DNA of 64,000 nt from Burkholderiales bacterium (GTDB lineage: Bacteria > Pseudomonadota > Gammaproteobacteria > Burkholderiales > Burkholderiaceae_C): the NCBI GenBank assembly GCA_028868305.1, contig JAGWUS010000008.1:1-64000 (forward strand), written 5' to 3'. How positions within the stretch are numbered: the first letter of the stretch is position 1; the number at the start of each line of letters is the position of its first letter. The position numbers and the translations under genes are program-made. Of this stretch, positions 11,669 through 63,944 are shown piece by piece. The notes under the pieces were generated by a model, which saw nothing but the letters and a program-made list of their open reading frames with translations, was not told where the DNA came from and did no database searches.

Positions 11669-11700
11669 AAGGGCTAGTGCTTTTTCAAGCGCTAGCCCTT
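11669..11700 (-). terminator. Hairpin plus U-tract between rplT and pheS (terminator/attenuator candidate)
   Basis: Minus strand AAGGGCTAGCGC-ttgaaaaa-GCACTAGCCCTTTTT about 30 nt before pheS. Confidence 0.65.
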
Positions 11701-11737
11701 GTTTCTGGTGCACAGAACGCTATGTATTAAATAGCAC
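11681..11737 (-). repeat. 57-bp interspersed repeat, copy D (rplT-pheS gap)
   Basis: GTGCTATTTAATACATAGCGTTCTGTGCACCAGAAACAAGGGCTAGCGCTTGAAAAA. Confidence 0.7.
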
Positions 11738-13113: not shown

Positions 13114-13170
13114 CTGCTACACAAACTGTAGCGGTTGCTGCACAGCACACGCGGGCTAACCAGTGTTTCT
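13114..13170 (+). repeat. 57-bp interspersed repeat, copy H (thrS-infC gap)
   Basis: CTGCTACACAAACTGTAGCGGTTGCTGCACAGCACACGCGGGCTAACCAGTGTTTCT; shares CACGCGGGC with copy A. Confidence 0.7.
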
Positions 13171-13193
13171 TTGGAGAGAACCGGAGTCATTCC

Positions 13194-15160: not shown

Positions 15161-15217
15161 TTGCTACAAATTTGGTAGCTAGCTATGCACAAGGCACGAG
15201 GACTACGGCCTTATTCG
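15161..15217 (+). repeat. 57-bp interspersed repeat, copy C (thrS leader)
   Basis: TTGCTACAAATTTGGTAGCTAGCTATGCACAAGGCACGAGGACTACGGCCTTATTCG. Confidence 0.7.
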
Positions 15218-15252
15218 CTTCTGAATGGTGCCGGAGTAGTTCGCAGTGTCAT
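15211..15252 (-). CDS. Putative thrS leader peptide MTLRTTPAPFRSE*
   Basis: ATG ACA CTG CGA ACT ACT CCG GCA CCA TTC AGA AGC GAA TAA, three Thr codons in 13, upstream of the thrS terminator; AAGG upstream. Confidence 0.5.
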   Translation of the reverse strand: MTLRTTPAPFRSE

Positions 15253-38245: not shown

Positions 38246-39208
38246 ATGCCCCACGCACAGAACACCGCCGCACACCGATGGCTCGCCTATGGGTCCCTCG
38301 CATTAAGCATGTCCCTGGTGGGCAGCTACGTTGCCTTGTCCAAACCCCTGGTGGCCGCGTTGCCGGTATTCCTGCTCGCCTGGCTGCGCTTTGGCATTGG
38401 CGGACTGGCTATGGTGCGTTGGCTGGAACGCCCTGCCACCGAAGTCCCCATGACCCCACAGACGCGCCGGCTGCTTTTTCTGGAGTCGTTTCTGGGAAAT
38501 TTCCTGTTTTCGATCTGCATGCTGTTTGGCGTGAGCATGACCAGTGCCGTTTCCGCTGGCGTCATCATGGCATCCATTCCCGCGGCTGTTGCGCTCATGA
38601 GTTGGACCTTCCTCAAGGAACGCATCAGCCCGCGCGTCTGGGCTGCTGTGGCGTGCAGTGCACTGGGCATTGGCCTGCTGGCGCTATCAAAAGAAGAGCT
38701 GGCTGTGCACGGTACAGGCGGGCCAGAGCCCAATTTGACTCACAATCAGACGCTTGGCAACCTGCTGGTTTTTGCTGCCGTCCTGTGCGAAGCTGCTTAC
38801 GCCGTGATTGGCAAGAAGCTCACTGGCGCACTCTCACCCAAGCGGATTACTGCACTGATCAACCTCTGGGGTTTTTTGCTCATGACGCCGCTGGGACTGT
38901 ATGCCGCCTGGCGCTTCGACTTTGCGTCAGTGCAACCCGCGTCCTGGCTGCTGCTGGTGTTCTATGCACTCGCCGCCAGCGTCTGGACCGTCTGGCTCTG
39001 GATGACTGGTCTGAAAAACGTACCAGCAGCCCATGCTGGCGTGTTCACCGTCATGCTGCCCATCTCTGCCGCGCTGGTCGGCGTGGTGATTCTGGGTGAG
39101 CGGCTGGGCAGCATGCAGATGCTGGCGTTTGCCATCGCGCTGCTCAGTGTGCTGCTGGCCACCCTGCCCCCACGTCAGGCAGCCCGCCCCACTACACCAG
39201 CGCCCTAG
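38246..39208 (+). CDS. EamA/DMT superfamily transporter
   Basis: About ten TM segments, two EamA repeats. Confidence 0.85.
   Translation: MPHAQNTAAHRWLAYGSLALSMSLVGSYVALSKPLVAALPVFLLAWLRFGIGGLAMVRWLERPATEVPMTPQTRRLLFLESFLGNFLFSICMLFGVSMTSAVSAGVIMASIPAAVALMSWTFLKERISPRVWAAVACSALGIGLLALSKEELAVHGTGGPEPNLTHNQTLGNLLVFAAVLCEAAYAVIGKKLTGALSPKRITALINLWGFLLMTPLGLYAAWRFDFASVQPASWLLLVFYALAASVWTVWLWMTGLKNVPAAHAGVFTVMLPISAALVGVVILGERLGSMQMLAFAIALLSVLLATLPPRQAARPTTPAP
38681..38737 (+). repeat. 57-bp interspersed repeat, copy F (in-frame inside the EamA gene)
   Basis: GCGCTATCAAAAGAAGAGCTGGCTGTGCACGGTACAGGCGGGCCAGAGCCCAATTTG; 39/57 identical to copy A without gaps (hand count). Confidence 0.75.
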
Positions 39209-39713: not shown

Positions 39714-39890
39714 GACTGAGAACTCCTTTTCAATGAATTGACCGATTTTCCAATGGAAAAAACAACATCCTCGAGTGAAAAAAACTTTTTCCCCCTTGGA
39801 AACGTGCATTTTCTCCAGTAGCATCCCGCTTACCAGTGAAGAAGCAGTTTTTTATTGGTGATTAATCAACTTCCAGAAGGACAATCAATC

Positions 39891-40322
39891 ATGGCAACTG
39901 CAAAGAAAGCTCCGGCAAAAAAAGCTGCTCCCGCAAAGAAAGTAGCACCCGCCAAGAAAGCCGCCGCACCAGCGAAGAAAGTCGCTGCCAAGGCTCCAGC
40001 CAAGAAAGCGGCTCCAGCTAAAAAGGCTGCACCCGCCAAGAAGGTTGCAGCTAAAAAGGCTCCCGCCAAAAAGCGCACTGTCAACGCTGCTTTCATGAAG
40101 GCACTGACCCCCAGCGCTGCATTGGCCGCGGTGGTTGGCAACTCCCCCCTGCCACGCACTGAAGTCGTGAGCAAGCTGTGGACCTACATCAAGAAGAACA
40201 AGCTGCAGGATGCAGTGAACAAGCGCATGATCAACGCCGATGCGAAGTTGAAGGAAGTCTTTAACAAGGCCCAGGTTTCCATGTTTGAGATGGCTGGCCT
40301 GATCGGCAAGCACCTCAAATAA
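39891..40322 (+). CDS. Histone H1-like Lys/Ala/Pro-rich tail fused to SWIB/MDM2 domain
   Basis: MATAKKAPAKKAAPAKKVAPAKKAAAPAKK... then NAAFMKALTPSAALAAVVGNSPLPRTEVVSKLWTYIKKNKLQD. Confidence 0.9.
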   Translation: MATAKKAPAKKAAPAKKVAPAKKAAAPAKKVAAKAPAKKAAPAKKAAPAKKVAAKKAPAKKRTVNAAFMKALTPSAALAAVVGNSPLPRTEVVSKLWTYIKKNKLQDAVNKRMINADAKLKEVFNKAQVSMFEMAGLIGKHLK

Positions 40323-48381: not shown

Positions 48382-48429
48382 TCACCCGTCGCGCCAGGTG
48401 CCATGGCGGGGAAGCGGATGACATTCATA

Positions 48430-48486
48430 AAAAAATGACTCTAGCCAGCGCCCACCATGTACAAGCAGCTACATTTTTTATAGCAA
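48430..48486 (-). repeat. 57-bp interspersed repeat, copy B (between convergent genes)
   Basis: TTGCTATAAAAAATGTAGCTGCTTGTACATGGTGGGCGCTGGCTAGAGTCATTTTTT; starts directly after the TGA of the TPP-enzyme gene. Confidence 0.75.
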
Positions 48487-55710: not shown

Positions 55711-55767
55711 TTGCTACTAAATCCATAGCTGGCTGTGCATATCCCACGCGGGCCGGAGGCCTATTTC
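55711..55767 (+). repeat. 57-bp interspersed repeat, copy A (between convergent genes)
   Basis: TTGCTACTAAATCCATAGCTGGCTGTGCATATCCCACGCGGGCCGGAGGCCTATTTC. Confidence 0.75.
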
Positions 55768-56224
55768 ATTGAATTCTTCAGCTTGGTCAGCACGCTTTTG
55801 TCGATCAGGTCTTTTTCGCGATAGTCGGTCTTGGTCTTGAGCAGACCGTCAATGTCCAGCGTGGCAATGGGCACGCCTTCCACATCAATGTGGCGTACAT
55901 GGGGGTGCAGCGACTCGAACGTCTGGCCATTGGCCGCAAAAAGCAGGTCCACCAGCAGGTCGTCCGCAACACGAATGTTGTCGGGTGCGGCAGGGTCTAC
56001 TTCAAACCAGGCAGGGTCAAGCTCTGCGCTGCTCGGCAAGAAATTCAAAGCGCGGATGACTTTGCGGCCATTGTCGATAGACGACGGCAGGAGGATGTCG
56101 ATGTCTTCGGTGCTGCGCACAAAGCCATTAAGCCGTACCGCCCGTGCCCGCCGACCAGAACGTACTGAACGCCCTCTTCCGCAAACCGGCGAAGCAGGTG
56201 CAAAAGCTGGTCAGGTTGCGCCAC
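55761..56224 (-). pseudogene. Nucleotidyltransferase-like protein interrupted by a frameshift
   Basis: GTG start at 56224: VAQPDQLLHLLRRFAEEGVQYVLVGGH then frame change; continues as AVRLNGFVRSTEDIDILLPSSIDNGRKVIRAL... Confidence 0.65.
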
Positions 56225-62705: not shown

Positions 62706-63944
62706 TTATGCCAGCAACTCACTGAATGCCACAAACTGCACCCTGTCGCCAGGCGCAATGGTGCAGCCCGCAGGGTTGTCGACCATGCCATCGCCCCAGA
62801 CAGTCGAGGTCAGTACGCCCGAACTTTGGTTGGGAAACAGGTCCAAACCACCTTGGGCATTGCGACGCACGCGCAGGAATTCACGGCGTTTATCGGCTCT
62901 GGCCCAAGTGAAATCTGCGCGGACAGCTATTGATTTCATAGCAACTTCGGTTACGCCCTGCATTTGCAGCAGAAATGGCCGCACAAGCACCAGGAAGGTG
63001 ATGTAGCTCGACACCGGGTTGCCAGGCAATCCCAGGAAATGCGCATTGCCAATGCGGCCGTGTGCAAACGGTTTGCCGGGCTTGATGGCGATCTGCCACA
63101 GGTCCAGCGAGCCCAGCGATTGCACGGCGGGCTTGATGTGGTCTTCTTCACCCACCGAAACACCGCCGCTGGTCAGAATCACATCGTGGCTCTGGGCAGC
63201 GCTGCGCAGGGCTTCCACCGTTGCGTCGCGCTGATCCGGCACGATGCCCATATCGGTGACATCACAACCCAGGCGACGTAACAGCGCGGCCAGAAAGAAA
63301 CGGTTTGAGTTGTAGATGGCACCGGGTGGCATGTCCTGCGGCGCCTTCTGGCCGGGCATGACGAGTTCATCGCCCGTCGAAAACAGCGCCACGCGCGGAC
63401 GGCGCTTCACGGCAAGTTCCGCCATGCCGACACTGGCAGCCAGACCCAGCGCCGCCGGATGCAGACGCTGGCCACACTGCAGCACCACACTGCCACGGGC
63501 CACATCTTCACCGGCACGGCGAATCCACTGCCCCACAGCGGGCACAGCATTCACCCGCACCCCTCCCTCGCATTCGTTGACCACGTCGCAGTCTTCCTGC
63601 ATGACCACGGCATCAGCGCCCGACGGAATCGGGGCACCGGTAAAAATGCGCGCCGCGCTCAAAGGCTGCATGCGATGACCACTGGAGCCCGCAGCAATGC
63701 GCTGCGTGACCTGCAGCACCACACCGGACTCCTGCACATCGGCGCAGCGCACGGCATAGCCGTCCATGGAGCTGTTGTCCTGCGGCGGAACGTGCAGTTC
63801 GGACACCACGTCTGCGGCAAGCACACGGCCATCGGCGTCCAGCGTGGCGACCATTTCAACATCCTGCAGCGGTGCAACAGCACCCAGCAGTTGCGCTAGC
63901 GCGTCGTCAAGCGACATCAATGGGGGACGCGGTGCCGTGGCCAT
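62706..63944 (-). CDS. moeA: Molybdopterin molybdenumtransferase
   Basis: LHVPPQDNSSMDGYAVR...GAPIPSGADAVVMQED...STGDELVMPG...TSGGVSVGEEDHIK...LPGNPVSSYITF. Confidence 0.95.
   Translation of the reverse strand: MATAPRPPLMSLDDALAQLLGAVAPLQDVEMVATLDADGRVLAADVVSELHVPPQDNSSMDGYAVRCADVQESGVVLQVTQRIAAGSSGHRMQPLSAARIFTGAPIPSGADAVVMQEDCDVVNECEGGVRVNAVPAVGQWIRRAGEDVARGSVVLQCGQRLHPAALGLAASVGMAELAVKRRPRVALFSTGDELVMPGQKAPQDMPPGAIYNSNRFFLAALLRRLGCDVTDMGIVPDQRDATVEALRSAAQSHDVILTSGGVSVGEEDHIKPAVQSLGSLDLWQIAIKPGKPFAHGRIGNAHFLGLPGNPVSSYITFLVLVRPFLLQMQGVTEVAMKSIAVRADFTWARADKRREFLRVRRNAQGGLDLFPNQSSGVLTSTVWGDGMVDNPAGCTIAPGDRVQFVAFSELLA
62888..62944 (-). repeat. 57-bp interspersed repeat, copy G (in-frame inside moeA)
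   Basis: TTGCTATGAAATCAATAGCTGTCCGCGCAGATTTCACTTGGGCCAGAGCCGATAAAC; 37/57 identical to copy A, GGGCCAGAGCC identical to copy F. Confidence 0.65.

Follow-up and report, generated by a model that had tools for sequence, protein, structure and literature searches.

Rickettsia palindromic elements (RPEs) have been described as insertions that lengthen proteins. The uptake sequences of the Pasteurellaceae (USS) comprise a 9-bp core and two AT segments (Redfield et al., 2006, PMC1626085), and those of the Neisseriaceae (DUS) are 10–12 bp long, occur in about 900–6000 copies and have ComP as their receptor (Frye et al., 2013, PMC3630211). A repeat named BRE has been described in Bordetella and the Comamonadaceae, with 29 copies in Polaromonas JS666 and 4 in R. 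ferrireducens, sometimes in coding sequences; in Bordetella, BREs are 75–91 bp long with 69% GC, are often arranged in tandem and have few copies (Hot et al., 2011, PMC3110155). No earlier description of the motif reported here was found in the literature searched, and its core sequences did not occur as text in any paper there.

We came to this motif through a single gene in a 64-kb window, the whole 64,000-nucleotide stretch of Burkholderiales DNA that was analysed. A plus-strand ORF at 38246–39205 (320 codons without a stop) encodes a transporter of the EamA/DMT family (PF00892, 2.5e-33) with EamA domains at residues 18–145 and 170–306, and the gene has a match in 50 of the 61 genomes searched. 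An earlier note on this DNA had described positions 38681–38737 as a repeat copy, copy F, that serves as in-frame sense coding sequence of this transporter; the ORF and the Pfam assignment bear this out, and the in-frame reading is ALSKEELAVHGTGGPEPNL. The gapless identity of 39/57 that the note had reported between copy F and an intergenic copy, copy A, was reproduced against positions 55711–55767, as compared to a best gapless match of 28/57 to a reversed control. Taken by itself a pairwise identity of 39/57 is modest, which speaks for a chance or codon-usage resemblance of the EamA loop to intergenic DNA. However, copy F scored 54.0 bits in a leave-one-out test against a 58-column profile of 26 other genomic copies from the core search (F left out of training), far above chance (null maximum −5.1 in reversed window sequence); a covariance model of the family (R1, F left out) gave it 50.0 bits with E 2.9e-11; and copies occupy the same position in 57 orthologues. 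These results refute chance resemblance, to which we assign practically no probability. A 15-base core, allowing at most one mismatch, is found at 31 places in the whole genome of origin versus 1 for the reversed pattern.

The full-length motif in copy F runs on the plus strand from 38681 to 38745 (core 38683–38740), is read in sense phase 2, carries GAG where the consensus has TAG, and encodes residues 146–165 (ALSKEELAVHGTGGPEPNLT). This segment falls between EamA domain 1 and domain 2, so the hydrophilic loop between transmembrane helices proposed by the earlier note is more exactly the linker that joins the two domains; because the protein has no PDB relative at E 1e-5, this placement rests on the Pfam domain limits.

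The sequence of copy F is an instance of a DNA motif of ~66 bp and ~50 bits with the core GCTATnnATTnnATAGCTGCTTGTGCAnnTTCCACGnGGGCTAGAGGCnnATTT. Its informative columns extend from −4 to 62; the 58-bp core holds 49–50 bits, and there is next to no shared information in the flanks. In 1.23 Mb sampled from the Rhodoferax-like genome of origin (G000), 162 copies exceed 15 bits, as compared to a null maximum of 4.4 bits, which extrapolates to ~480 copies per genome, with both strands about equally common. By a simple hexamer-based gene model, which may be wrong in individual cases, 67 of the 162 copies fall between genes, 22 overlap a gene end and 73 (~45%) lie inside ORFs, and 62 of these 73 occupy two of the six frames (27 sense phase 0, 35 antisense phase 1). 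A congener assembled as a single contig (G007) has 169 copies in 1.2 Mb, 80 of them in ORFs, with the same two dominant frames. Wherever the frame would read TAG, the motif has lost its in-frame stop: GAG replaces TAG in 9/9 sense-phase-2 copies, copy F being in this minority frame, and CTA, which would read as TAG, is avoided in 9/9 antisense-phase-0 copies. The earlier note had singled out copy F as the strongest case of a repeat donating a peptide, a ranking that does not survive comparison with ~75–80 in-gene copies per 1.2-Mb sample in the two genomes and with the minority frame of F. The EamA copy is not exceptional within the motif family, and it is the family, more than this one copy, that is of interest.

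Other copies in the window show the same range of settings. The strongest, at 55713–55770 (+; 67.8 bits), is copy A, as identified by the 39/57 identity; like the copies at 15163–15220 (+; 47.6 bits), 48427–48484 (−; 42.9 bits) and 11678–11735 (−; 32.8 bits), it is not internal to a called gene. A weak copy at 13116–13173 (+; 15.6 bits, above the null) is probably decayed. Within genes, a copy at 1071–1128 (+; 51.9 bits, with this copy in the training set) lies antisense, phase 1, in a Cu-oxidase_4 (laccase-domain, PF02578) gene at 779–1540 (−), and the motif is found at the same place in the G007 orthologue. Another, at 62885–62942 (−; 38.5 bits), is read in sense phase 0 in a MoeA gene at 62709–63917 (−; Pfam MoeA domains), whose G007 orthologue has a near-identical peptide (AMKSTAVRADF), no gap and no recognisable motif. 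The window also encodes, at 39855–40322 (+), a Lys/Ala/Pro-rich histone-H1-like protein with 18-nt repeats (KKAAPAKKA).

Intergenic copies in both genomes sit close to the 3′ ends of genes, at a median distance of 8–14 nt, and are over-represented between convergent genes (16/62 in G000 and 21/74 in G007, whereas among intergenic gaps overall the figures are 45/483 and 59/509); these copies may act as terminators or at mRNA ends. The palindromy of the motif amounts to a short GCTA/TAGC hairpin with four conserved pairs, none of which is changed on both sides. With only this 4-bp stem without covariation, no Rfam match at the gathering threshold within the 64-kb window, and sense and antisense copies similarly common inside genes, RNA structure was rejected as the conserved feature.

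If a 57–66 bp element had been inserted into these genes, homologues without the motif should lack ~19 residues, a gap test that has also been applied to Pasteurellaceae uptake sequences (PMC1626085) and that we applied to a small sample of six sites. Homologues aligned through the motif with 0 residue change in LigA (E. coli-type), 0 to 1 in a DppD-type ATPase and −2 in SelO; two sites in PurL were longer by 6 to 7 and by about 8 residues than the Salmonella-type enzyme, and the EamA linker by 0 to 9 residues than in motif-less orthologues. None of the six sites had a 19-residue insertion. Some PurL loops in carriers are 6–13 residues longer than in non-carriers, which shows that small indels took part there, and small insertions may be part of the history of the motif.

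The EamA gene was followed through 94 usable aligned orthologues. Fifty-seven of them, from Rhodoferax, Polaromonas, Curvibacter, Variovorax and related MAGs, score positively for the motif in the same position and phase, and their linker measures 26 aa between the ALSK position and GN in almost every case; linkers in motif-less orthologues measure 17–26 aa and never show a clean 19-aa absence. Aligning orthologues had been proposed in the earlier note as a way to reveal a lineage-specific loop extension, and this distribution across several genera gives none; conservation of the loop among distant orthologues, which the note had set against insertion, is seen in part, in the near-constant length among motif bearers. 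The codon-position pattern, which the note had also recommended, was informative: per-column variability among the 57 segments decreases as motif information rises (rho −0.61 for all columns; −0.59, p 0.006, at third codon positions), and the third-position correlation indicates that the constraint is partly on DNA. Thus, of the proposal that the repeat donates a peptide, what stands is that the peptide of copy F is shaped by the motif, and nothing indicates that a mobile repeat entered this site in the present lineage. An insertion or peptide donation special to the genome of origin is ruled out, the site being common to Rhodoferax, Polaromonas and Variovorax with no 19-residue gaps.

The motif differs in detail between genomes, and its sites change together. 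From G000 to G007 the consensus changes from G to C at column 38 and from T to C at column 23, in coding and non-coding copies alike. At 15 single-copy in-gene sites (orthologues at least 60% identical), the motif occupies the same aligned position in the two genomes, and column 38 is G in 15/15 G000 copies and C in 13/15 G007 copies. In leave-one-out scoring the profile of a copy's own genome fitted better for 17/17 G000 and 15/17 G007 orthologous in-gene copies. For the EamA copies, own versus other profile gave 51.9 versus 40.1 bits in G000 and 50.6 versus 33.6 in G007. Dialects in 37 congeners, counted by whole-genome pattern, fall into a G type (G/C counts 98/0 in G000, 150/2 in G015, 69/1 in G032, 41/5 in G030, and others) and a C type (9/151 in G007, 14/142 in G033, 19/63 in G020, 25/57 in G001, and others). 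Column 38 at the EamA site agrees with the genome dialect in 11 of 13 carriers. At the PurL sites the tracking is imperfect, since G013, G015 and G009 carry C in G-dialect genomes, and is good in C-dialect genomes.

Presence of the motif is likewise a property of the genome. Twenty-one of the 37 congeners have pattern counts of 0–2 genome-wide, and congeners that lack the motif across the genome all lack it at EamA too. Whole-genome counts predict its presence: all 13 carrier genomes outscore all 17 non-carriers at the EamA site, with 12 carriers at 8 to 54, the thirteenth (G012) at −5 and 17/17 non-carriers at −33 or less. A sulfite-reductase-like gene and the two PurL sites show this separation again, with 41/41 sites above 30 bits in 14, 13 and 14 carriers and 44/44 at or below about 10 bits in 16, 14 and 14 scored non-carriers. 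On a PurL tree built with the motif columns removed, non-carriers appear in several places. Carrier status has to change three times on it, which can be read as a single gain with two nested losses. G006, G014, G018 and G031 make up a nested clade of non-carriers that has carriers as neighbours. The PurL gene in question (L178, 10480–14502) holds its two motif copies in different frames, and both sites are common to all carrier congeners with coverage.

A RAYT transposase as the trans factor and ComEC as a discriminator of carriers were both rejected. RAYT/Y1 transposase domains (PF01797) are present in 35/37 genomes regardless of the motif and show no correlation with it, and ComEC is found in most carriers and most non-carriers and does not discriminate between them. 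The comEC gene of G007 (L287:9955–12459, −) contains an in-frame peptide that resembles the sense-phase-0 motif peptide (SGAARADSTGTGGQND). Viral contigs are nearly free of the motif (31 stretches in 2.9 million contigs). A 138-kb stretch of G007 (G007:C1:2813119–2951304) has no motif copy, a GC content of 0.488 as compared to 0.58 in the sampled block, and a low coding score under the G000 model; it is probably a foreign island. A mark of resident DNA would be expected to be scarce in viral contigs and absent from such a low-GC stretch, as the motif is here.

The fixed sites and the dialects, together with the loss across whole genomes, the constraint at the DNA level and frames governed by tolerance, point to a trans-acting process that prefers the motif. 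The reading we favour, tentatively and with slightly less than even confidence, is that such a process, with dialects that differ between genomes, keeps the motif at several hundred fixed chromosomal positions. The motif would have been imprinted by substitution, with small loop adjustments, by a cellular machine that favours motif-bearing DNA; that machine would most likely be sequence-biased DNA uptake followed by homologous recombination, as with the DUS and USS of Neisseriaceae and Pasteurellaceae, and the permissive EamA inter-domain linker would absorb the cost, its peptide being a by-product and not a donated functional segment. We rank biased uptake first because it is the best-known process with such a signature (PMC1626085, PMC3630211). 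Counted against it are the ~66-bp length of the motif, the lack of a known receptor, and the failure to find comEC in the 99.99%-complete G000 assembly when searched with PF03772 and with the G007 protein; dprA is present in G000. Known transformation needs comEC. Uptake is a candidate role, and most of the data would be explained equally well if the motif were the selected site of a chromosomal DNA-binding protein acting in nucleoid organisation, segregation, repair or recombination, with no uptake involved. Fixed positions, balanced orientation and DNA-level constraint would follow as readily, co-evolution of the protein would yield dialects and concerted loss, and comEC, of which none was found in G000, would not be required. 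Nevertheless, ~50 bits is well above the ~23 bits that suffice to single out one site in a genome of 3.5 Mb, the G007 sample has no consistent strand skew, unlike segregation motifs, and the protein itself is only putative; we regard this explanation as somewhat less likely than uptake.

Less probable still, in our judgement, is that an ancient mobile palindromic repeat of REP/MITE or RPE-like type entered the gene in frame in an ancestral genome and supplied the peptide, with gene conversion, or transposition into copies already present, later homogenising the family. The repeat-like consensus with its short hairpin, the intergenic copies near gene 3′ ends with their preference for convergent pairs, as in REPs (PMC3733652), and the 6–8 additional residues at the two PurL sites relative to the Salmonella-type enzyme are what such a history could leave behind. 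However, it was already weakened by the gap test, with no 19-residue insertion at any of the six sites, and the near absence of shared information in the flanks would require conversion tracts with exact ends. Stops are avoided frame by frame among copies that are supposed to have been homogenised, RAYT/Y1 domains fail to separate carriers from non-carriers, and the genome-wide loss is concerted, in-gene sites included.

With more reserve than we attach to the uptake reading, we suggest that these observations may represent a previously undescribed Comamonadaceae system that maintains a ~66-bp motif, with genome-specific dialects, at several hundred fixed positions, the interiors of core enzymes included. 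Dialect shifts would rewrite protein segments, loss of the system would erode all sites together, and the system would belong with neither mobile repeats nor the short uptake sequences of the classical kind. If so, a DNA-level process would impose peptide sequence on core proteins (PurL, LigA, SelO, the EamA transporter) across a large and environmentally common family, and dialect-type genome watermarks would extend well beyond the Neisseriaceae and Pasteurellaceae. We know of no uptake receptor or nucleoid protein that accounts for such information content. The split between carriers and non-carriers inside one genus should allow the trans factor to be found by comparative genomics.

Among known systems, BRE looks different from this motif, a distinction drawn from its description and not from its sequence. 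RPEs resemble it as small in-frame repeats inside protein genes; by contrast, homologues here lack a matching gap, and orthologous copies evolve in concert. REPs and the GTAG- and CGTC-tagged palindromes associated with RAYT are likewise short repeats scattered near the 3′ ends of genes, with some inside ORFs (PMC3733652), but the present motif does not correlate with a Y1 transposase, tracks dialects at fixed sites, and has much weaker palindromy with no compensatory changes. The likeness is closer to USS, which are abundant, lie on both strands and inside genes, arise in existing sequence without alignment gaps, have AT-rich segments beside the core, show two consensus types by subclade and are long stable at their sites (PMC1626085), and to the betaproteobacterial DUS, whose clade dialects differ by single bases, whose stop in one frame limits intragenic placement and which are absent in some family members (PMC3630211). 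It differs from USS in its ~50 bits and its several hundred copies, and from DUS with their 10–12 bp, about 900–6000 copies and known receptor, ComP. With ~66 bp, it is also far longer than the uptake sequences of the cited papers (PMC1626085, PMC3630211), and than the about 9–30 bp expected of such motifs. On account of this length we term the motif uptake-sequence-like and not a member of DUS or USS, with which it shares over-representation in both orientations, genic as well as intergenic placement, dialects that change together and a probable origin by substitution (six sites).
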